DNA of 34,721 nt, taken from the NCBI GenBank assembly GCA_013791785.1, contig VMTD01000045.1, forward strand, positions 1-34,721. The letters are read 5' to 3'. This document shows positions 2,799 through 27,741 of the stretch, piece after piece. The DNA comes from Methanobacteriota archaeon (GTDB taxonomy: Archaea; Thermoplasmatota; Thermoplasmata; SG8-5). A program made the translations under genes and the position numbers. Numbering within the stretch: the stretch's first letter is position 1; each line of letters starts with the position of its first letter. The notes beneath the pieces were generated by a model. The model was given only the letters and a program-made list of their open reading frames with translations. It was not told where the DNA came from and did no database searches.

Positions 2799-2907
2799 CG
2801 ATTACCCCCTTTACTGCATAAATGCCGAGAACGCTCAGTCCTTCAGGGCTGAAATGAATTGGCATAAGCAGTAAAATGCAATGCGAAAGATGAACGAATA
2901 GCAGCCA

Positions 2908-3057
2908 TGCAAGATTCGCGTAATGCGTTTCACCCGACACGGACTGGTCGGGCGAGTACCTGTCACCCCGGGGCAAGCCCCGAGGTTTAACAATATACAG
3001 AAGCTTTGTATCACCCAGTATGCTTGGATATCACGACCCCACCCTCACAGGTGGGGC
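2908..3057 (-). ncRNA. Structured repeat copy 1: three hairpins, candidate omega-RNA-like or unknown ncRNA
   Basis: Read on the minus strand this has three hairpins. Hairpin A is a 7-bp stem (3050-3056 with 3037-3043) around the loop TGTGAG. Hairpin B is a 9-bp stem near 2971-2990 (CCTCGGGGC with GCCCCGGGG). Then comes the linker TGACAGGTACTCG, hairpin C (TCGCCCGAC with GTCGGGTGA), and a conserved tail AAACGCATTACGCG. The same order, linker and tail recur on the plus strand at 18141-18314, where the stems have different sequences that still pair. Hairpins with a TGTNAG loop after GCCC resemble right-end hairpins of IS200/IS605-IS1341 elements, the source of TnpB guide RNAs, but no tnpB frame is nearby. 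It may be an orphan element end, a domesticated guide-like RNA, or an unrelated ncRNA. Confidence 0.5.
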
Positions 3058-3075
3058 ATGCTGCTATAACATGCT

Positions 3076-3126
3076 AATGCTCAAGGAACATATTTTTATG
3101 CAGATTGCCATTAAGCCTTGAGCATT
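3076..3126. repeat. 11-bp perfect inverted repeat
   Basis: AATGCTCAAGG at 3076-3086 is the exact reverse complement of 3116-3126, with a 29-base AT-rich loop between. It lies about 85 bases upstream of the first gene of the operon. It could be a transcript hairpin, a regulator-binding palindrome or part of the neighbouring repeat. No partner copy was seen in the window. Confidence 0.55.
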
Positions 3127-3179
3127 GTTCTTCGTTCCAGCTCGAAAAACCAGGAACCTCCCGGTATTGCCGGGCTTCG

Positions 3180-3210: not shown

Positions 3211-3843
3211 ATGCCAATGTCAGAGAAATTACAACCTGAGTGGAAATACCAGTTGCAGGGACTGAGGGGCCTGAACCCGCCTCCCAAACTCAACAAGCCG
3301 GCATTGCTGGTCATAGACATGCAGAGATATTTCTGCGATCCGGATGCTCCAGCGTACGGCCGTGATTTCGATGCCACTGTGGAGCCGGTCCAGGCCCTGG
3401 TGGGCGCTTTCGGGAAACTGGGGTTGCCTGTCTTCGCCACCCGCTATTACTCCAAGGATGATAATGACCCCACGGCCAGATGGTGGAATGCCACCCTGGA
3501 GAAAGATAGTCCGTGGGTTGATGTCGACCCCCGAATCAAGCTTCCCCCAGGTTCCAAGGTACTGGACAAGCATCTCTACGGGACTTTCTCATCCACAGAC
3601 CTGGATGAACGGCTGAAGGCGCTGGGCTGCGATTCCGTCGTCATATGCGGCGTCATGACCGACCTGTGTTGCGAAACGACAGCAAGAGAAGCGTTCCAGC
3701 TCAGTTATACCGTTTATTTCGTGGGTGACGCCACCGCCACCAGCGATTACATGCTGCATTTCTCGGCACTGGCTACCCTGGCCCACGGTTTCGCTTTCAT
3801 TGTCACAGTTGACGACATAATAAAATTGCTGGAGGAAAAATAA
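3211..3843 (+). CDS. Isochorismatase-family cysteine hydrolase (nicotinamidase-like)
   Basis: This 210-residue protein has the full isochorismatase-type catalytic set: Asp36 in ALLVIDMQ, Lys120 in LDKHLYGTF, and Cys153 in GVMTDLCCETTAR, preceded by the segment (CGVMT) that normally holds the cis-peptide. Family members hydrolyse amide or ester bonds in nicotinamide, N-carbamoyl compounds or isochorismate; the sequence does not settle the substrate. The metal-binding D-x-H motif of true nicotinamidases is not evident, so a general amidohydrolase role is as likely. The start is chosen at ATG 3211 from the TATA position; GTG 3208 and ATG 3217 are alternatives. Its TAA overlaps the ATG of the flavoprotein gene by one base, so the two are probably co-translated. 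The hydrolase may act on the product of the radical SAM or flavoprotein partner, which is inference. Confidence 0.85.
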   Translation: MPMSEKLQPEWKYQLQGLRGLNPPPKLNKPALLVIDMQRYFCDPDAPAYGRDFDATVEPVQALVGAFGKLGLPVFATRYYSKDDNDPTARWWNATLEKDSPWVDVDPRIKLPPGSKVLDKHLYGTFSSTDLDERLKALGCDSVVICGVMTDLCCETTAREAFQLSYTVYFVGDATATSDYMLHFSALATLAHGFAFIVTVDDIIKLLEEK

Positions 3844-16668: not shown

Positions 16669-17142
16669 ATGGCACCGCAAGTACTCATAATAATGGGAAG
16701 CAAGTCCGACCTGGGGGTCGGTCAGAAAGCACTTGATACACTCAGGAAACTGGGGATATCATGCGAGATAAAGGTCGCATCCGCCCACCGCACGCCCAAA
16801 CTGGTTGCGGACTTGGTGGAAAATTCCGATGCAAAGGTATTCATTGCCATTGCCGGCCTCGCAGCGGCATTGCCCGGTGCTATTGCAGCCCACACGATAC
16901 GGCCGGTCATCGGGGTCCCGGTGAGCGGCAAGGTGAATCTGGATTCGATTCTTTCCATAGTCCAGATGCCCCCCGGAATTCCTGTTGCAGCTGTGGGCCT
17001 TGACAGGGGAGAGAACGCCGGACTCCTGGCCGCCCAGATTATCGCGATTACCGATACCGAGATTGAGAAAAAGCTTTTGGAGCACCGGAAGGAACAGGAG
17101 AACAAAGTTCATACCGATTCCTCCAGCCTGGGAGCGATGTGA
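16669..17142 (+). CDS. purE: PurE, 5-(carboxyamino)imidazole ribonucleotide mutase/AIR carboxylase
   Basis: A 157-residue PurE of standard length for de novo purine synthesis. Signature motifs are IIMGSKSD (7-14), SAHRTP (38-43; His40 is the catalytic-type histidine), [15 protein letters not shown], and the substrate-loop [20 protein letters not shown]. The HRTP form points to class I, the mutase acting on N5-CAIR, while the AGL-A-ALPG stretch is closer to class II, which uses AIR and CO2 directly, so the class is open. No purK lies alongside. The TGA overlaps the ATG of guaAb by one base, coupling two purine genes. Confidence 0.9.
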
Positions 17143-18092
17143 TGTTCGACCCGGAAGCGTTCACGAAGGAAGCCATTGACATAATCAAGCAGCAGATAAC
17201 CGACGGGAAAGCCATAATCGCCTGTTCCGGAGGCGTTGACAGCGTTGTGGCAACAGTGCTGGTGAGCCGGGCAATCGGGGACCGGCTCGTGGCTGTTCAC
17301 GTGGATACCGGATTCATGCGAAAGAACGAATCTGCCGACGTGGTCAAGATGATGGAGCGCATGAACATCAATCATAAGTTTGTTGATGCGAGCAAGGAAT
17401 TTTACGATACCCTAAAAGGCGTCACCGAGCCCGAGGCCAAGAGAAAAATCATAGGCGAAAGATTCATTCGCGTTTTCGAGAGGGAGGCAAAGATAACAGG
17501 CGCGAAATTCCTGGTCCAGGGTACGATCGCCCCCGATTGGATAGAGAGCGGCGGAGACTTGCGGGACGTCATAAAGTCCCATCATAACGTGGGTGCACTG
17601 CCCGAGAAGATGGACATGAAACTTGTGGAGCCGCTGCGGGACCTGTACAAGGACGAGGTGCGGAAGCTGGGCAGGTATCTCGGCATAGAGTTGGCAGAGC
17701 GCCAGCCCTTCCCGGGACCGGGACTGGCCATCAGGATAATCGGCGAACCGACCGAAGAGGCCGCTCATATTGTGAGAGAAGCATGCGCCATAGTCGAGGA
17801 GGAATTCGAGAAGGCCGCAACAGCCGGGAAGATGGAATTGCCCTGGCAGTATTTTGCTGTACTCACCCCGATAAAAACGGTCGGGGTTCACGGCGACGTA
17901 AGGGCCTACGGGTACACGGTGGCAGTGCGTGCAGTTCAATCGCTGGACGGCATGAGCGCGGCCTATTCCAGGATACCCCACGAGGTGCTGGAGAAGATAT
18001 CTATTCGCATCACCAACTCCATGAAGGACAAGGTGAATAGAGTCGTATACGACATCACGAACAAACCGCCTGCTACAATTGAATGGGAGTAG
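17142..18092 (+). CDS. guaAb: GMP synthase subunit B (ATP pyrophosphatase subunit)
   Basis: A 316-residue subunit of the split archaeal GMP synthetase. It has the PP-loop SGGVDS (29-34), VDTGFMRKNE, GTIAPDWIESGG, KSHHNVGALPEKM, EPLRDLYKDEVRKLG, RQPFPGPGLAIRI, and a C-terminal dimerisation domain ending DITNKPPATIEWE, all characteristic of GuaA. The glutamine amidotransferase subunit found fused in bacteria is absent and must be encoded elsewhere. It adenylates XMP and converts it to GMP with ammonia delivered by the partner. ATG 17142 is preferred to GTG 17139; it overlaps the purE stop (TGATG). Confidence 0.95.
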   Translation: MFDPEAFTKEAIDIIKQQITDGKAIIACSGGVDSVVATVLVSRAIGDRLVAVHVDTGFMRKNESADVVKMMERMNINHKFVDASKEFYDTLKGVTEPEAKRKIIGERFIRVFEREAKITGAKFLVQGTIAPDWIESGGDLRDVIKSHHNVGALPEKMDMKLVEPLRDLYKDEVRKLGRYLGIELAERQPFPGPGLAIRIIGEPTEEAAHIVREACAIVEEEFEKAATAGKMELPWQYFAVLTPIKTVGVHGDVRAYGYTVAVRAVQSLDGMSAAYSRIPHEVLEKISIRITNSMKDKVNRVVYDITNKPPATIEWE

Positions 18093-18140
18093 ATGAGAGC
18101 AGTTTTATCGGTTTGTTCAAAAACGATTTCCAAACCGCAT

Positions 18141-18314
18141 GCCCTGGCTGTAAGGCCAGGGTTTCATTTCATTTCTCAACCGAGTGCGCTTTCACCCCTT
18201 CAGATATGGTCAGTATAATTATTGCAATCATGAAGCCCCGCCTGTCAGGGCGGGGTGGCAGGTACTCGCCCCACCAGTACGTGTGGGGCGAAACCCATTA
18301 CGCGGATCTTGCAC
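18141..18314 (+). ncRNA. Structured repeat copy 2: three hairpins, candidate omega-RNA-like or unknown ncRNA
   Basis: The plus-strand copy of the element at 2908-3057. Hairpin A is CCCTGGC/GCCAGGG with loop TGTAAG (18142-18161). After about 70 bases comes hairpin B, CCCCGCC/GGCGGGG with loop TGTCAG (near 18236-18255). Then come linker TGGCAGGTACTCG, hairpin C TCGCCCCAC/GTGGGGCGA, and tail AAACCCATTACGCGG. Linker and tail match copy 1 almost base for base, while all stems differ but remain paired, and GAAGCCCC before hairpin B resembles IS200/IS605-type right ends. It lies alone between guaAb and the small cysteine protein gene; the 285-base gap (18093-18377) holds nothing else recognised. Confidence 0.55.
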
Positions 18315-18377
18315 AGGAGCTTTTCTCTCTATCTTCGCGTCGCATATTCGAAACAAACTTATGATTCATTTTTGAAC

Positions 18378-18686: not shown

Positions 18687-21600
18687 ATGAAGTTTGTGAG
18701 AAAAAAAATATTCACAATATGGGTGTGCGCGGTTATGGTTGTTTCGGCATTCGTGATGGTGGGCGAGGTCGGAAATGATGTGGAAGGAAAGGAACTTGCA
18801 GACGAGGGTCTTGCTTATGTTCCGCCGCAGGTTCCTATAAAAATTGACTCGAATGCGGACCTCCCACTGATGGAGTCCTGGAGCGGAGAGCTACCATATA
18901 CAGAGACATTCAATGATGAATTGATTATCGCACTCCAGAGCGATATGAAGGACATGAATCCCTGGAATCCAGATACGAATGATGTTTGGAAATCAAATCA
19001 GCTTCAGTACAATTTCGAGGGCCTGATGGCCTACAACCCTGATTACGAATTGTACCCTGCTCTGGCGGCAGCGAACCCAACCGGACCGAACGGAGCCGAT
19101 GCCTGGGTGAGCGCTGATGGGTTGCAGTTTTCAATCAACCTCAGATCGAACGTCACATTCCACGACGGCCATGTCATGGACTCGCAGGATGTCGTATTCT
19201 CATTCCAAACCTTGGCCTGGGGGCTATTCCAGAACCAGGTGCTAAACTCGCTGTACTGGGGCGATGGTACCACATTCACAAGGTACGACGGCGGCATCAG
19301 TAAAATTGGTGTCGAGGCAAATGGTACCTATAGGGTGGACTTCCACCTGAATCAGCCATATTCAATGTTCTGGTACCAGACAATGAAATTGCCTATTATT
19401 CCGTTCCACATATGGAATAATCACACAGTACCAGCCCAGGGGTGGTATAACACCACAGACGAATTCCAGGTTGACTATTCATACGGCAGTTCTCCCACTG
19501 AAACCGACGCAACAATAGGCACTGGGCCGTTTTACCTCGAGTCCTGGTCCCCAGGAAACGGCTCCGTGATCAAAGCATACGAGAACTATTGGGACAAGAA
19601 CGGCACCACCTCATGGAAGGGCGTCGAATACCCGAACTACCCGAAATACGTGAAGGAAATGAGGTTCAAGATATACACTCAGCTCGACGTGGCAATACTT
19701 GCTCTCCAGAACGGAGAGGTCCACCATCTTCCCTGGAGCCTGACACCAGGTAATCAAAACTCGCTTAGTCTTAACCCATGTGTCGGCATCGAGACAAACA
19801 AGGACCAGGGCCTGTTCTACATGTCATTCAACTTCAGGAAAGCAGGTATCAGCGACAAGAACTTCAGAAGGGCCATAGCCTACTGCGTTGACAAACAATA
19901 CATCGTTGACAGGCTCATGGGCGGTTACGGTATCAAGGGAACCGTTCCCATGTCCGTCACCAACACCTTCTACGTGAACACAACGGTTCCGGCCTGGATA
20001 CAGGGCGGTAACCTTGACGCAGCCAAGGCACTTCTTGACGCGAACGGCTACACGGACAAGGACGGAGACGGCTGGAGGGACATGCCGGACGGTTCACCGA
20101 TTAAATTCAACATCCTGACACCACCGAAGGACTATGACCCGATAAGGGCTGACAGCGGTATCATGATTGAAAAGAACCTGAAATCAATCGGCCTGAACAT
20201 TGCATCTGTGCCAACAAGCTTTGACACACTCGTGAGCGCGGCTTACGTGTCTGTTGACTTCGACATGTACATCTTAGGATGGAGCGTCGGCTCGTTCCCG
20301 GAATCATACCTGAGGGATTTTTTCCACTCGGACATGGATGTCGCACTTAACCCGTGGGGTTCGAATGCCGCCGGTTACCACAACGCAACCGTGGATGCCA
20401 TGATCGAAGACATGGAAGTCGAGATGGACAATGACATCAGGGCTGGCCTGATCAAGGACATTTGTGGCGCAACCATGATGGATGTAGTTTATGACACGCT
20501 CTACTACAGGACCAACATCGAAGCATACCGTGGAGACATCTGGCAGGGCTGGGTTTCGGGTTTCGGTTCGATTTACAATAGATTCTCAATTAACAATCTG
20601 CTTCCACCCAGTTATATGAATCCGTCCTATGGCAATCTTGAGGTCGGATTGTATGTACCAGACACACTTCCCGCCGATGGCAATTCGACATGCTATGTTC
20701 TGGTGACGAACAATGATGTTCCGATGGACAATGCGTATGTCGAGGTCCAGACCAGTTTCGGCACCTACATCTCTGGAAATACAGATTCTGAAGGTAATTT
20801 CAATTTTGATCTGCTCGTGCCATTCATCGAGGGGCACGTATATATCTGGGCCAATGTGACAAAGGACGCCGAAGTGGGCGGTGCATTCCAGGTATCCAGC
20901 GTTATCACTTCCAAGCCCATTGCCCAGCTCAGCCTGTCAACTCTCGACGGGGTCATCTCCCCTTCGGGTTCGACGGTGGTCATGGCAAAGGTGACTGACC
21001 GGGATGGAGTCGGAATGGGCGGTGTAAGCGTTAACGTTGACACAAATCTCATGTTCGGCAGTGTGGACGCGCCTGTTAAAGTGACGGATCTGACTGGATT
21101 CGCGAATTTCACATACACAGCGCCACCAACCTCCATGTTGCCAAACACCAACAGGTACGAGCAGTTTAAAGCCACAATCTCTGTGCCAAATGCCATAATA
21201 CCCGAGGTTCAGGCAGCATCCCTCATCATCGGAGTTTTCAATAGCGTGAAGGACTGGTACTCTATCGATATTACCGGTGTCACCGATTACGTGATAACCG
21301 GCAACGCGTCTGGAACACTGCCGATGACAACAGATGTCACGGTAACAGTACTGGACCAGGACGGAGCACCGGTTGATGCCGCAGAACTCACCATAGAGGT
21401 CGACAACACAATAGCAACCCCGGACGCACTGACAAAGAACACAAACGTCGCCGGACAGGCCGTGTTCACACTTACTGCCGTGGACCTTGGCAACTCGACC
21501 GAGAGCACAATGGTGAGGGTCTACAACTACACCAAAGCATACGCCACCGAGGACACATTCCTGCTCTGTAATGCCAACGAATCCAGCACCATGACCGGAT

Positions 21601-24600
21601 ACGCAGCAGACATTGACTTCGATGATATGGTTGACCACCAGGGAACAGCCACCATAACAGCGACAGTCTGGAACCAGACCGGCGCTCTGGCAGTCGGTGT
21701 TCCGTGCCAGTTCTTCATACCGCCAACTGCAGAGGGAATACCCGGCTTATTCCAGGGAGGAGATTCCTGGGGATGGTATGAATATGGAATGGACTGGGAC
21801 TTCGGCTGGTGGGCCGGTTACCTCGGTAGCTGGTTCGGCGACAATGCGACCGTCACGGACGGCGCAGGTCAGCTGGTCGGAACCATAACCACACCGAGCT
21901 TCATCGCAGACAGCGTCATACCGGTGGAATTCGGTATTGGAGGTTACGGAATCACCGATGCGTTCAACTTCACCGCCAACCAGTGGTGGATGGAGGACTA
22001 CGGAGCAGATAACTGGGTTGCACCGTTCACTGACGGAGAGGACGGAAACTACTACCTGAGGCCGGCAGACTTCACCCTCAAGGACTCCGGAATACTCTTT
22101 AGGGGGCCCATCGCAACCATGACCAACGTAAACCTGGACACGCCATACTTTTCCTCCGAGGACTCGAACGGAACAATCACCATAACTTTCCAGAATGAGA
22201 GTGGCGCATTGGCGAATTCCAATGTGAAGATTTCCGAGGGAATAGCCAACCCGCCATTACTTGACGAGGGGCTGACAAACAGTTCTGGCATGAGGAGTTA
22301 TCTTTATGATTCCGGAGCAAGAGTGTTTGATACCGGCATAGGGTTCACAACAATGGTGACGGATGTTAATTATTCACACTTTCCGTTTAATTTCTACTTG
22401 CCATATGTCAATACTCCGGACAACTTGATTCTGACTGCGGAGCCTTCTGTGAAACTGATAGATGCAGATGAAGCTGTCCAATTCAATGTAACGGTCACGG
22501 ATTATCTGGGAACCCCTATTGTCGGAGCAGTGGTCTGGGTGGGCAATGTTTCAAACACGACAGATGCAATGGGTGAAACAACATTTTCTTTGCTGATGTC
22601 TGGCAGTGGAATTCAGAATACAACCTTTGCCACATCTTATAGCGGATGGAATGGAAGCATGACCGCAGGAGTGATTGTTTGGGCTTTTACTTCCCTCCCT
22701 TGGTTCGATGATATGGAGAGCGGCCAAGGCAACTGGACTGTGGTAACGAATAATACTGCATGGGAACTGGGCAACCCCCTGGGTTATGGGCCGGGAACCG
22801 CTTACTCTGGCAATAACTGTTGGGGAACGAATGTTAATACGAACTATCAAGATGGGGCATATGCAATTCTCACAACACCGTGTTTCAATTCTCCATCGTA
22901 CGATATTCTATCTTTCTACATGTGGTTCCGAACTGAGGGATGGTGTGATGCTGGTTGGGTAGAAGTTACGAGTAACGGTTTAAATTGGACCCGAATAGAA
23001 CCTGTTACTGGCCCAACATATCATGATACAACTTGGGGTCGGGGTTATTCCGGTGATTACACAGGTAATTCCACTGGTTGGCAGTATGCTGAATTTGACC
23101 TGTCATCCTTCCCAGGCGGAACTCTATCGATTCGTTTCGTATTCAGAAGTGACGGAAGTGTCACATATCCTGGCTGGTATATCGATGATGTATATGTCGG
23201 CACCCCCCCGGACTACCGTGTCCGTCTGACCCCGGAAACCCAAACTGGCAGCGGCACAATCGGCCAAACCTTTGATTATTCGTTGACCGTGGAGAACACC
23301 GGCTTACAAAACGACACATATAATCTATCTATCTTCGGCAATTCCTGGGACACCCGAATATACAATGCCAACGGCACAGTCGAAATCTCAAATATTTATG
23401 TTGCCAGTGGAATGTCGGAGAACATTCTCGTCAGGGTTTTGGTGACATTCAACGCGACCGGCGGTGATCAGGATATTTCGATTATAACCGCGACATCATG
23501 GAACGATTTCAATGCCCGCGACAATTCCACAATCACGACCCGCGTCGGCGCGGTTCACAATATTGAGCAGGACATCTGGTATTCGACAATTCAGGAGGCC
23601 GTGGACGATGCGAATTCCGGAGACCACCTCTGGGCGAGAAATGGTACTTACCATGAGACAGTGAACATCTACAAGTCCATAACCCTCACCGGCGAGAACA
23701 GGAATACCACCATAATCGACGGCGGTGGAAACTGGTATGTGGTGTATATTCAAACCAGTGGTGTGAGCATCAGCGGGTTCACTATACGGAATGGTGGAAA
23801 TTATGGCGTCTACCTTGATTCCTCTTACGGCTGCACAATTGCGGACAACATCATATCGAACAATGATTGTGGCATCCGCCTTTCCAAATCCAATGATAAT
23901 ATTATTACCGACAATATTTTTAACTCGAACAGTGGTTTTGGTATCTGGCTTGAATCTTCAAGCCGCAACACCATCGCCAATAACACTATTTCGAACAACT
24001 ATATTGGCATATCCCTTTATTCCTCCTCTCAGAACAACACCATCTCGAATAACCTAATCAATAACAACTATTTTGGAATCAGATTTGAGGTTGAACGATG
24101 CAACTCCAACACGATAACCCACTGTAACATTCTTAACAATGATGGATATGGAATATATGCTAACAGTTGGGGATCTTTCCATATCCTCAACCTGATAACC
24201 TACAACAACATTCTCTCGAATGGATATTGTGGCATTTATATAGAATGGAACACACAGTACAACTACATCCACCACAACAACATTGCAGCCAATGGTTGGC
24301 GAAATGCCTATGAGTCGAGTTTCAACATTACAAATGTCTGGGACGACGGCTACCCGTCCGGCGGGAACTACTGGGGTGATTACTCGGGCAATGATTTCTA
24401 TTCCGGCCCGTTGCAGAACATACCCGGCTTCGATGGAATCGGGGATACGCCATACAATGTCAATGGGGGAGGTAACAGCAGTTCGATACAGGACCAATAC
24501 CCATTCATAAAACCCACTGTTGCGGGTCCCCAGCCCATTACCGATTCCACGCCCCCGCAGCATTCGGACGAGTACCCTCTGCCAGGCTCCAGAATCAGCG

Positions 24601-27509
24601 ATGCGACACCTGAAATTTCAGTCAGCATATCAGATGACTCCTGGGTCAACGAGTCCACGATAAAGCTGTACGTCAATGGTTTTTCAGTAAAGACCAACAA
24701 AGCCCTCAGGTCGGACGGGACAAATGTCTATTTCGATGTCTCGTACTATCATGCTTCGGGATTCATCGACGGCCAGGTCGTGACCTGCAGGATAGTCGCC
24801 ATGGACATATTCAGTAACTCAATGGAATACATCTGGCAGTTCACAGTTGACCTGACAGCACCATTTGTGGTTTCAGTGTACCCACTGGACAGTGCAATTG
24901 ACGTGCCCAGAAACACAACAATCAGCGTCACATTCAGCGAACCCATGGACCATGCTTCGGTGGAAGCTGCATTCACCATCAATCCCTCTGTTTCAGGAAA
25001 CTTCACCTGGGTCGGAAATACAATGACATTCCACCCGAACACGGACCTGGCTCCGACCACAATCTATAATGTCTCTGTGAATATGAATGCAATGGACCTG
25101 GCAGGAAATCATCTGGCTGATTATTTCTGGTCCTTCACAACAGAACAGGGCTACCTCAGGATTTACCACACCCCGGCATCCACGGTGGAACTCGGAACTT
25201 CACTGGTCGTGAACTGCGACGTTGAAGCGTTCTGGGGCAGTTATATTGTAAATTGCACTCTTTATTACATTCCGGTCGGAGGCACAGAGTACATTGCGAT
25301 TTCCATGTGGCTGCAATCCGGTGACGAGTATTATGGCACCTGGATGTGCCTGATACCGGCGCAGAACTCGGTGGGTATTCTACGATACTACATCGAGGCC
25401 CAGAACGACTGGCTTGAGACCGCAACCTATCCGGAGACAGACCCGGTTGTAAGCCCTGTAATTGTCAATGTGATTGATACTGCCGCGCCCATGCATTCTG
25501 ACGAACAACCTGCAGATGGCACCAATGCATCAGATGGCTCCGTGCTTGTATCAGTAAACATTACAGACATCTCTGCTATTAACACTGGAACCATTCAACT
25601 GATAATCAACGGCTTCTCAGTGGATTATACTCTGACATTGATTCCGAACGGCTACCGTGTGTCTTACTTCCAGGAAGCCAGCTTCGGCTCCGAGACCGTG
25701 CAATGTAGGATAATAGCCGATGACGTTTGGGGAAATCAACTGGACTGGACCTGGTCTTTCACGGTGTCAAATCCGGTAATGGAGATAAGCAAGGAAGCGC
25801 CTGCGACAGCGAATCCCGGTCAAATGATAACTTACTGGGTTAACTTCACCAACTCTGGCACTGCCTGGGCATACAATGTGACTGTGACAGAAATATATCC
25901 CGCAGGGGTGACATTTGTAAGTAGTCTCCCATTCCCATCATTTGGCAACAATGTCTGGTTCATTGGAAATGTTGCGCCCGGTGCTTCTATGTCCATACAA
26001 ATCACGGTTCAGGTCAACATTGGAGCCAACGGCACACTCATTAATACAGTTATTCTGGACTATGAGAACAGCGTTGGTACGCCATTCCAGGAACAGGATT
26101 CGGCATTTACCTCAGTGATTGCCCCGTTGATGATGATTGACAAAACAGGCCCCGCAACAGCCAGCCCTGGCGAAACCATAACCTACACGATTACTTACAT
26201 GAACCTCGGAACAGACTGGGCCTACAATGTCTGGATTAACGAGACTTACCCTGCAGGAGTCACATTTATCAACGCGAGCCCGGCCCCGACCATAGGCAAC
26301 AATGCATGGTTCATCGGAAATGTTCCTCCGGGTGGGTCAGGGAGCATTTTCATCAATGTAACAGTTATAGCTAGCAGCGGAAACCTCACGAATTCCGTAT
26401 TCCTTGAATACACTGATTCGATGGGAACTCCCTACCCAATTGTATCGGATACTACTGAAACAATAGTTACTGATTCGTCACCCCAGCACTCTAATGAATC
26501 CCCGCCAATCGACGGCTACACATCTGACATGACTCCTGTTATCTCGGTACATGTGACCGACGGAAGCGGAGTAAATGCCAGCACAATCCGGTTGTACATA
26601 AACGGTTTCTCGATCGCCTATAACCTGGTGCCTATTTCGGACGGTTACAATGTGTCCTACTGGCATGAAGGCGGATTCACCGATGGAGAAGTGGTAACAT
26701 GCAGAATATATGCGAAGGATTTCAGCGGCAATACACTGGATTTCACCTGGACATTCACGGTGTCATCCGTACCGTCATTCGACATCGAAATTCATGCAGG
26801 CTGGAACCTCATCTCCCTCCCACTAGTCCAGACCAACACATCGATACTGAGCGTTCTTTCATCAATAGACGGCCAGTGGGACGTTGTCAAATATTATGAT
26901 GCCATCACTAAAACCTGGAAAACCTACCGCGTCGGAGCAACAACCAACACCCTCTTTGACTTGGACCACACTATGGGATTCTGGCTACACACCACCGAAA
27001 ATACTACCCTGACAGTTTACGGTACGCCGCCCACCAACACTGATATCTTGCTGAAAGCGGGCTGGAACCTGGTCGGTTACCCGTCCATGAACGGAACCAG
27101 GACCATCGCTGAAGCTCTTTTTGGAACTGGATATTTAAGAGTGGAGGGCTACGATTCAGCATCACCATACATCAAAGTCTTGAACGACACCTACATCATG
27201 AAAGCTGGCGAAGGATACTGGGTATATGTTCCGAGCGATACTTTGTGGATTGTATCGTTTTACTCTTCACCATCGGAAGATGAAATTAATGCTGAAGGTG
27301 GCTTTTCCGAGACCAAGGGCGCTGGAGGCGCATTCACTTCAACAATCGAGGAATATTACATACCTCTTCCGAGCGACTGTACTGTTGCGGCATCTCTCAA
27401 CGGAAATGGCGTATCCAGCACCCAGGCCTCTTCCGGCGGCTCATCCCTGTTCGGGCTGCTGCTGCTATTGGCGGTTGTCTGTCTGGCGGTACGAAAGCAC
27501 AGGAATTAA
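18687..27509 (+). CDS. Giant surface protein: peptide-binding ABC-type domain fused to Ig-like, beta-helix and repeat modules
   Basis: A 2,940-residue protein. After a signal/anchor helix (about 8-26), residues about 65-640 form a family 5 extracellular solute-binding domain (DppA/OppA type), seen in NQLQYNFEGLMAYN, FRRAIAYCVDKQYIVDRLM and the closing YNRFSINN. Next come Big/invasin-like Ig domains (640-1330) and a lectin-like MAM-type domain (about 1335-1508: FDDMESGQGNW to GWYIDDVYVG). A CARDB-like segment, a NosD beta-helix (1625-1938) and an SbsA-type Big_5 domain (2060-2153) follow. Three copies of a roughly 100-residue HSDE/HSNE module start near 1952, 2265 and 2595, two DUF11-like repeats lie at 2364-2595, then a GWNLISLP/GWNLVGYP tandem (2700-2855) and a C-terminal helix (about 2917-2936) before RKHRN. 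It probably captures peptides at the cell surface; no permease genes adjoin. Confidence 0.9.
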   Translation: MKFVRKKIFTIWVCAVMVVSAFVMVGEVGNDVEGKELADEGLAYVPPQVPIKIDSNADLPLMESWSGELPYTETFNDELIIALQSDMKDMNPWNPDTNDVWKSNQLQYNFEGLMAYNPDYELYPALAAANPTGPNGADAWVSADGLQFSINLRSNVTFHDGHVMDSQDVVFSFQTLAWGLFQNQVLNSLYWGDGTTFTRYDGGISKIGVEANGTYRVDFHLNQPYSMFWYQTMKLPIIPFHIWNNHTVPAQGWYNTTDEFQVDYSYGSSPTETDATIGTGPFYLESWSPGNGSVIKAYENYWDKNGTTSWKGVEYPNYPKYVKEMRFKIYTQLDVAILALQNGEVHHLPWSLTPGNQNSLSLNPCVGIETNKDQGLFYMSFNFRKAGISDKNFRRAIAYCVDKQYIVDRLMGGYGIKGTVPMSVTNTFYVNTTVPAWIQGGNLDAAKALLDANGYTDKDGDGWRDMPDGSPIKFNILTPPKDYDPIRADSGIMIEKNLKSIGLNIASVPTSFDTLVSAAYVSVDFDMYILGWSVGSFPESYLRDFFHSDMDVALNPWGSNAAGYHNATVDAMIEDMEVEMDNDIRAGLIKDICGATMMDVVYDTLYYRTNIEAYRGDIWQGWVSGFGSIYNRFSINNLLPPSYMNPSYGNLEVGLYVPDTLPADGNSTCYVLVTNNDVPMDNAYVEVQTSFGTYISGNTDSEGNFNFDLLVPFIEGHVYIWANVTKDAEVGGAFQVSSVITSKPIAQLSLSTLDGVISPSGSTVVMAKVTDRDGVGMGGVSVNVDTNLMFGSVDAPVKVTDLTGFANFTYTAPPTSMLPNTNRYEQFKATISVPNAIIPEVQAASLIIGVFNSVKDWYSIDITGVTDYVITGNASGTLPMTTDVTVTVLDQDGAPVDAAELTIEVDNTIATPDALTKNTNVAGQAVFTLTAVDLGNSTESTMVRVYNYTKAYATEDTFLLCNANESSTMTGYAADIDFDDMVDHQGTATITATVWNQTGALAVGVPCQFFIPPTAEGIPGLFQGGDSWGWYEYGMDWDFGWWAGYLGSWFGDNATVTDGAGQLVGTITTPSFIADSVIPVEFGIGGYGITDAFNFTANQWWMEDYGADNWVAPFTDGEDGNYYLRPADFTLKDSGILFRGPIATMTNVNLDTPYFSSEDSNGTITITFQNESGALANSNVKISEGIANPPLLDEGLTNSSGMRSYLYDSGARVFDTGIGFTTMVTDVNYSHFPFNFYLPYVNTPDNLILTAEPSVKLIDADEAVQFNVTVTDYLGTPIVGAVVWVGNVSNTTDAMGETTFSLLMSGSGIQNTTFATSYSGWNGSMTAGVIVWAFTSLPWFDDMESGQGNWTVVTNNTAWELGNPLGYGPGTAYSGNNCWGTNVNTNYQDGAYAILTTPCFNSPSYDILSFYMWFRTEGWCDAGWVEVTSNGLNWTRIEPVTGPTYHDTTWGRGYSGDYTGNSTGWQYAEFDLSSFPGGTLSIRFVFRSDGSVTYPGWYIDDVYVGTPPDYRVRLTPETQTGSGTIGQTFDYSLTVENTGLQNDTYNLSIFGNSWDTRIYNANGTVEISNIYVASGMSENILVRVLVTFNATGGDQDISIITATSWNDFNARDNSTITTRVGAVHNIEQDIWYSTIQEAVDDANSGDHLWARNGTYHETVNIYKSITLTGENRNTTIIDGGGNWYVVYIQTSGVSISGFTIRNGGNYGVYLDSSYGCTIADNIISNNDCGIRLSKSNDNIITDNIFNSNSGFGIWLESSSRNTIANNTISNNYIGISLYSSSQNNTISNNLINNNYFGIRFEVERCNSNTITHCNILNNDGYGIYANSWGSFHILNLITYNNILSNGYCGIYIEWNTQYNYIHHNNIAANGWRNAYESSFNITNVWDDGYPSGGNYWGDYSGNDFYSGPLQNIPGFDGIGDTPYNVNGGGNSSSIQDQYPFIKPTVAGPQPITDSTPPQHSDEYPLPGSRISDATPEISVSISDDSWVNESTIKLYVNGFSVKTNKALRSDGTNVYFDVSYYHASGFIDGQVVTCRIVAMDIFSNSMEYIWQFTVDLTAPFVVSVYPLDSAIDVPRNTTISVTFSEPMDHASVEAAFTINPSVSGNFTWVGNTMTFHPNTDLAPTTIYNVSVNMNAMDLAGNHLADYFWSFTTEQGYLRIYHTPASTVELGTSLVVNCDVEAFWGSYIVNCTLYYIPVGGTEYIAISMWLQSGDEYYGTWMCLIPAQNSVGILRYYIEAQNDWLETATYPETDPVVSPVIVNVIDTAAPMHSDEQPADGTNASDGSVLVSVNITDISAINTGTIQLIINGFSVDYTLTLIPNGYRVSYFQEASFGSETVQCRIIADDVWGNQLDWTWSFTVSNPVMEISKEAPATANPGQMITYWVNFTNSGTAWAYNVTVTEIYPAGVTFVSSLPFPSFGNNVWFIGNVAPGASMSIQITVQVNIGANGTLINTVILDYENSVGTPFQEQDSAFTSVIAPLMMIDKTGPATASPGETITYTITYMNLGTDWAYNVWINETYPAGVTFINASPAPTIGNNAWFIGNVPPGGSGSIFINVTVIASSGNLTNSVFLEYTDSMGTPYPIVSDTTETIVTDSSPQHSNESPPIDGYTSDMTPVISVHVTDGSGVNASTIRLYINGFSIAYNLVPISDGYNVSYWHEGGFTDGEVVTCRIYAKDFSGNTLDFTWTFTVSSVPSFDIEIHAGWNLISLPLVQTNTSILSVLSSIDGQWDVVKYYDAITKTWKTYRVGATTNTLFDLDHTMGFWLHTTENTTLTVYGTPPTNTDILLKAGWNLVGYPSMNGTRTIAEALFGTGYLRVEGYDSASPYIKVLNDTYIMKAGEGYWVYVPSDTLWIVSFYSSPSEDEINAEGGFSETKGAGGAFTSTIEEYYIPLPSDCTVAASLNGNGVSSTQASSGGSSLFGLLLLLAVVCLAVRKHRN

Positions 27510-27633: not shown

Positions 27634-27741
27634 TGCCGAAGACGGGATCTGAACCCGCGGCCTTCGGATATCTCAAGATATCCAGTGCGTCATAGATTAT
27701 CCCTATGAGTCCGACGCTCTACCAGGCTGAGCCACTTCGGC
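27634..27741 (-). tRNA. tRNA-Met(CAT), elongator type, with a 34-base intron
   Basis: The cloverleaf reads: acceptor GCCGAAG/CTTCGGC, discriminator A73; D stem GCTC/GAGC; anticodon stem TCGGA/TCCGA; loop CTCATA before the intron plus A38 after it, so the anticodon is CAT; variable AGGCC; T stem GCGGG/CCCGT with TTCAGAT loop. Removing 27670-27703 leaves a 74-nt tRNA with no encoded CCA. The intron lies after base 37, the canonical archaeal site. CAT tRNAs also include the initiator and the isoleucine tRNA modified to read ATA; the G1-C72 pair argues against the usual archaeal initiator (A1-U72), and the close overall likeness to archaeal elongator tRNA-Met (GCC..., CTCATAA loop) supports the call. 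Confidence 0.92.
27670..27703 (-). other. tRNA intron
   Basis: 34 bases inserted between positions 37 and 38. They contain CTATGA, which can pair with TCATAG spanning the anticodon, and GATATC followed by TTGA and GATATC, giving exon-intron helices of the kind needed for the bulge-helix-bulge cut by archaeal splicing endonuclease. The exact bulges were not resolved by eye. Confidence 0.75.

Follow-up and report, generated by a model that had tools for sequence, protein, structure and literature searches.

The 34,721-nucleotide window, the whole stretch of DNA analysed here, corresponds to contig C88 of G000, a genome of 2.62 Mb, and contains two copies of a structured repeat whose family belongs to one archaeal order (Ca. 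Proteinoplasmatales/UBA147-type Thermoplasmata). We consider it somewhat probable, at roughly 55%, that this is a REP/BOX-like, modular and formerly mobile family which is kept, or at least tolerated, as folded 3′-UTR RNA. The full element is about 200 nt long and comprises hairpin A, a variable middle region (often hairpin M and GTGAC), hairpin B, GGTACTCG, hairpin C and, last, an unpaired tail that is conserved; forms missing some of these modules are shorter. In the window copies, hairpin A consists of CATG, a 7-bp stem, a TGTNAG loop and a T, the variable middle and hairpin B follow, the linker TGRCAGGTACTCG leads to hairpin C (9 bp with an 8-nt loop), and the unpaired tail reads AAACNCATTACGCGRATCTTGCA...TTCGC. 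The parts of both copies, in the A-to-tail direction, and the neighbouring genes are as follows.

3060-2876, minus strand: copy 1, whole element
3036..3060, minus strand: copy 1 hairpin A, CATG-CCCCACC-TGTGAG-GGTGGGG-T, of the order-wide hairpin A family
2991..3016, minus strand: copy 1 middle region, GGGTGATACAAAGCTTCTGTATATTG, with a small hairpin ATACA/TGTAT, common to at least five copies
2966..2985, minus strand: copy 1 hairpin B, CCTCGGGG-CTTG-CCCCGGGG, covarying stem
2953..2965, minus strand: copy 1 conserved linker, TGACAGGTACTCG
2930..2955, minus strand: copy 1 hairpin C, TCGCCCGAC...GTCGGGTGA, covarying stem
2876..2929, minus strand: copy 1 conserved unpaired tail, AACGCATTACGCGAATCTTGCA...TTCGCATTGCAT
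3217..3843, plus strand: gene adjoining copy 1, isochorismatase-family hydrolase
17142..18092, plus strand: gene preceding copy 2, GMP synthase ATP-PPase subunit (guaA-type, GMP_synt_C)
18138-18345, plus strand: copy 2, whole element
18138..18162, plus strand: copy 2 hairpin A, CATG-CCCTGGC-TGTAAG-GCCAGGG-T, 45 nt past the guaA stop codon
18181..18232, plus strand: copy 2 middle region of a different subtype, CGAGTGCGCTTTCACCCC..., common to the C24 and C110 copies
18236..18255, plus strand: copy 2 hairpin B, CCCCGCC-TGTCAG-GGCGGGG, covarying stem
18256..18268, plus strand: copy 2 conserved linker, TGGCAGGTACTCG
18266..18291, plus strand: copy 2 hairpin C, TCGCCCCAC...GTGGGGCGA, covarying stem
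18292..18345, plus strand: copy 2 conserved unpaired tail, AACCCATTACGCGGATCTTGCACAGGAGCTTTTC...TTCGCGTCGCAT

An earlier, sequence-only reading had placed both copies correctly, with true extents slightly longer than it gave, and had described a nearly exact linker and tail together with a compensated hairpin C, which is exactly what the two copies contain. Its description of stems that are unlike yet still paired also held for hairpin A (CCCCACC/GGTGGGG in copy 1 and CCCTGGC/GCCAGGG in copy 2) and for hairpin B (CCTCGGGG/CCCCGGGG and CCCCGCC/GGCGGGG respectively). The shared core pattern matched twice in the window and in none of 100 shuffles, and both copies folded better than all 200 dinucleotide shuffles (z of −3.8 and −3.4).

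A gapped pattern search revealed nine copies in G000, from which the covariance model R1 was built. When G000 was searched with R1, a check that the sequence-only reading had proposed, 21 strong copies were obtained (E≤3e-16), i.e. about 19 besides the window pair, one of which (C123) is split by an insertion; further copies were detected in three other genomes of the genus. Hairpin A alone, detected by gapped pattern, was present 72 times in G000 and 46, 26 and 53 times in the three congeners, with lower counts in other families of the order, and the reversed-pattern control gave 0 matches in the four genus genomes and essentially none overall. It was found in ten of the 13 genomes of the order and in 0 of the 387 class genomes outside it (400 class genomes searched, the ten positive ones all in the order). 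The corresponding MAGs are labelled Candidatus Proteinoplasmatales, Methanomassiliicoccales or Thermoplasmata archaeon (UBA147, STF1_128, E21_metabat.bin.9, SG8-5 and CSMAG bins); one bacterial match probably arose by chance. A viral origin was dropped, as the viral contigs searched yielded 0 matches. As a side observation, contig k141_401158 (19,748 bases) occurs in two public MAGs (G006:C44/G010:C32, DAOVAY010000025/DAOVGM010000038), one bin probably including the other's contig.

Covariation among the copies was strong. In each of the nine pattern-found copies, every one of the 16 pairs in hairpins B and C was standard, and five of these pairs were changed on both sides, a count that is independent of the structure to which the larger alignment of 40 copies was fitted. 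In that structure-fitted alignment, 99.1% of the hairpin B/C cells were paired, nine pairs were double-changed, and there were 67 double-changed cells; the shuffles averaged 17.6, with 0/500 reaching 67, and slid controls gave no more than 14. The claim that the folding is under selection was thus borne out by the covariation among genome copies and by window copies that beat all shuffles; what would have spoken against it, two solitary copies without covariation, is not what G000 holds, with its 21 copies. Many copies of hairpin A occur in a second form, in which A is followed by hairpin M (8 bp, loop of about 7), GTGAC, a stretch ending CATCATCCTT and hairpin B. Most G000 copies have CATCGAAT/ATTCGATG as their M stem, and between species this stem is swapped for unrelated perfect stems (GACCAGAT/ATCTGGTC, GGCCAGAT/ATCTGGCC, CTCCCGAT/ATCGGGAG, CATCCAAT/ATTGGATG and others). 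For 32 core copies of this A+M form, 47 double-changed cells were counted against a shuffle mean of 13.4 (0/500; slid controls ≤12), and six pairs were double-changed, a number reached in 66 of 500 shuffles. The 40 full copies and 32 core copies are sufficient for a new Rfam-style family.

The imperfect stem pairs revealed which strand carries the fold. On the A-to-tail strand, G·T outnumbered A·C by 106:9 over all hairpins (22:2 for C, 25:2 for B and 59:5 for A), where the stems of B and C had been chosen on Watson–Crick pairs only, the count for A covers positions 5-6, which the search pattern leaves free, and the p-values, including that of the pooled sign test, are inflated because the copies are related by descent. 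As a G·T pair on this strand is an unpaired A·C on its complement, the selected structure forms on the A-to-tail strand, which is usually the mRNA sense strand, and it folds either as RNA or as single-stranded DNA. The 3′ tail, for which RNAalifold predicts no structure, is the most conserved part of the element. A coding reading was set aside because stems, indels and loop lengths vary freely among copies.

The placement of the copies relative to genes was analysed on individual sequence stretches around the loci, with gene calls and gene ends from a simple hexamer gene caller made for this analysis. None of the 67 distinct hairpin A copies in G000 lay within a called gene. Among 111 elements whose upstream gene was on the same strand, 50 began within 60 nt of its stop codon; among 54 whose upstream gene was on the opposite strand, 2 began within that distance. 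Convergent and divergent locations were found in a ratio of 26:6 in G000, compared with 42:47 for the intergenic regions at the same loci (Fisher p 0.0009), and of 55:29 over all sampled genomes; convergent gene pairs often had one element per gene, tail to tail. Between co-directional genes the ratio of sense to antisense was 44:21 over all sampled genomes, about a third of such copies being antisense. The upstream and neighbouring genes are diverse and functionally unrelated. Copy 1 is an exception: rather than being in a 3′ UTR, it is located 5′ of the isochorismatase gene and points away from it.

Comparison between species showed both turnover and persistence. The GMP synthase gene has the element at its 3′ end in G000, G001 and G003, and none was seen there in the same orientation in G002, G004, G005, G008 and G010; G002 has an element of the other architecture there, facing the gene, and the G007 contig stops too near the gene for a call. 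The G000 and G003 copies at this site have a nearly identical hairpin C, including the loop, with a different A and middle, and a further site (L077/L090) has closely similar tails with all hairpins different. Several sites have kept an element across species at similar stop-to-A distances (28/20, 21/21, 11/15 and 45/44 nt) with differing modules, and in seven relatives nothing corresponding to copy 1 was found upstream of the isochorismatase gene. Copies within a genome are usually more similar than orthologous copies; there are lineage-specific subfamilies as well as mosaic and nested forms, and in the copy at C12:68191 hairpins A and B look as if fused into a single hairpin. This pattern is that of elements which spread and swap modules within genomes, yet are long-lived at some sites with the fold intact. 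Two further observations concern the surroundings of the copies. At the GMP synthase 3′ end in G002 and G003 (L284, L089), an insert of roughly 190 bp comes with duplicated last codons (..PPATIEWE*) and GACAAAC..GTTTGTC hairpins, the same hairpin being present in tandem in G007 (L288), and this gene end looks like an integration site. Degenerate palindromic units of 25-30 nt (GGCCGGAACCAGCTTCTTGGCCGGGTTG and variants) form short runs beside many copies, e.g. at L069, L072 and L077, and appear to be a further repeat layer of the mosaic.

We propose that copies spread inside each genome, mostly in the past, through transposition or gene conversion. Their retention, or at least tolerance, at gene ends would be due to transcription as the 3′ part of the upstream mRNA; there the hairpins may form in the RNA and protect or delimit its 3′ end. 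The RNA step is suggested by position, strand and wobble pairs. A more far-reaching version, which we hold only tentatively and think rather unlikely, is a clade-wide 3′-UTR code in which a dedicated RNA-binding or 3′-end-processing protein reads the invariant linkers (CATG, GTGAC, GGTACTCG and CTTGCA...TTCATCCTTCG) of an element copied to many gene ends, and so sets the 3′ ends or stability of mRNAs from many unrelated genes. In bacteria, multi-hairpin interspersed repeats able to shape mRNA ends are known (REP, BOX and ERIC). If our reading is right, elements of this kind evolved in archaea as well, and archaeal 3′-end RNA structure would be testable in parallel over dozens of unrelated genes.

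The sequence-only reading had correctly stated that neither copy has tnpA or tnpB beside it, and had pointed to IS200/IS605 right ends that yield TnpB guide RNAs. This lead was not supported. GC-rich hairpins with short loops would suit right ends or degenerate guide RNAs of this kind, and G000 does have an intact IS200-type Y1 gene (at C15) and IS200-like insertions; however, TnpB (PF07282) was below the cut-off in 13 of 13 genomes of the order, the same search being positive in six control genomes, and the genuine IS200 ends in G000 have a different sequence (GCCAGTCCCTTTAGGGGCTGGTAGTTTAC), one such insertion even interrupting a copy of the element. Furthermore, a guide RNA would have a constant scaffold followed by a variable guide, an arrangement that the element, with its conserved 3′ tail, does not have, and its hairpins, loops and linkers are common to dozens of intergenic copies beside unrelated genes. 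An Rfam scan of the window (E up to 1) gave nothing at the element, its two matches being a tRNA and a hit at chance level, so a known Rfam RNA was rejected too. An IS200/IS605–TnpB origin is therefore largely refuted, and we regard it as very improbable. As observations on IS200-type sequences themselves, the second Y1 gene of G000 (L146, G000:C115:9784-10071) has seemingly lost its normal N-terminus, and a long imperfect hairpin directly after copy 1 (2810-2875, minus strand; TTTACTGCTTATGCC..GGCATTTATGCAGTAAA), a relative of which sits with an IS200-type right end within the tail of the copy on C123 (L086), appears to be a small element derived from IS200.

A pure DNA-level REP/MITE system, possible although in our view doubtful, deserves closer weighing. 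Here the hairpins would be single-strand DNA sites of a spreading Y1 (HUH) transposase, the stems would covary for that transposase, and location at gene ends would reflect mere tolerance with nil host function. Lineage-specific subfamilies are consistent with this, as is the distribution, since bacterial REPs have the same convergent and 3′-end preference (PMC3733652) and so does BOX (PMC3049150). Y1_Tnp genes are present in seven of the 13 genomes, in one to three copies each, and recognition of single-stranded DNA hairpins by an IS200-type Y1 protein would select one strand just as RNA folding does. That point counts against the RNA reading, as do copy 1 and the antisense share of co-directional copies. 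As regards past mobility, flank alignments showed no terminal inverted repeats or target-site duplication, and no clean empty site was found. However, the Y1 genes are not accompanied by the element: the R1 scan of Y1 loci gave nothing convincing (best E 0.016), scanning 11 Y1 loci with R1 and for relaxed hairpins showed no flanking repeats and single doubtful hairpins in G008 and G009 only, and no autonomous copy with tnpA beside hairpins was found at these loci. Nor do the two co-occur across genomes, as G007, G009 and G011 have Y1 without hairpin A, and hairpin A was found without Y1 in G004, G005, G006, G010 and G012 (these genomes being incomplete). No tetranucleotide head or fixed end was found. 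The long persistence of structure at the same gene end across species, and four hairpins with conserved linkers, more than a transposase end needs, also argue against a purely DNA-level system. Because Y1 neither carries nor tracks the element and TnpB is absent as judged by its Pfam domain, we prefer the RNA 3′-end reading over a DNA-level, Y1-mobilised repeat. Strong covariation and conserved unpaired parts (GTGAC, GGTACTCG and the tail) could likewise indicate dedicated non-coding RNA genes or metabolite sensors, i.e. a trans-acting RNA or riboswitch class that is multi-copy by chance. We consider this improbable, given hairpin A counts that reach 72 in one genome and the presence/absence and mosaic variation between close species; with placement 3′ rather than 5′ of genes and unrelated upstream genes, a riboswitch or gene-family regulator was rejected.

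Among known repeats, the family works most like BOX and REP. The BOX elements of Streptococcus (boxA/boxB/boxC) are modular, fold as RNA and are enriched between convergent genes (PMC3049150). Like them, the archaeal elements are modular, intergenic, present in dozens to over 100 copies, predicted to form stable RNA stem-loops, in excess between convergent genes, nested with other repeats and without a known transposase; this likeness is an analogy drawn from features (modular combination, predicted RNA structure and convergent excess), and the Rfam scan of the window matched no family of this kind. BOX is bacterial, whereas the archaeal family fills each hairpin position with unrelated stems, has measurable one-strand selection and joins A, M, B and C by fixed linkers. 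In bacteria, REPs are located near 3′ ends, between genes that are convergent or unidirectional (PMC3733652), and their palindromes are maintained by complementary changes (PMC2817692). REPs are believed to rely on RAYT proteins. In archaea, the IS200-type subclass was the only one found when Y1 proteins were surveyed in 2018 (PMC6006769). With REP/BIME systems (TnpA_REP/RAYT; PMC2817692, PMC3733652, PMC6006769) the family shares extragenic palindromes, compensatory stem changes, composite mosaics, the 3′-end and convergent preference, genome-specific subfamilies and few-copy Y1 genes in some genomes. REPs, however, are single palindromes of 20-40 bp with GTAG/CGTC heads, whereas the archaeal elements are multi-hairpin units of about 60-200 nt that do not flank Y1 genes. 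Of the REP/RAYT features, dispersed multi-copy extragenic palindromes were found (72 hairpin A, 0/67 in genes); a Y1 gene flanked by repeats (REPtron) was absent at the 11 Y1 loci, as was a head GT(A/G)G or CGTC beside the palindromes, which instead have an invariant CATG before A and TACTCG before C. By these features the family is not a REP/RAYT member. Archaeal MITEs are known, e.g. SM1-SM4 of Sulfolobus (reviewed in PMC10969869), and are likewise small, non-coding, multi-copy and non-autonomous; the present family differs in its strong structure selection and gene-end placement, and in that no terminal inverted repeats or target duplication were seen. No description of an archaeal REP-like or structured repeat family was found in the open-licence literature.

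The window also contained features apart from the repeat. Just upstream of the isochorismatase gene is a conserved leader (3120-3157, plus strand; GAGCATTGTT..TTCCAGCTC..AAACCAGGAA) that is present in seven relatives and has no Rfam match. It has a stem GAGC/GCTC and a likely pseudoknot TTTCC/GGAAA, which in the window is GTTCC/GGAAC, a compensatory change; the leader is a candidate riboswitch. Rfam identified an intron-bearing tRNA gene (27634-27741, minus strand), which ARAGORN missed at the bacterial setting. Finally, positions 18687-27509 (plus strand) hold an open reading frame of 2,940 amino acids with a family 5 solute-binding domain (SBP_bac_5) within its first 604 residues.
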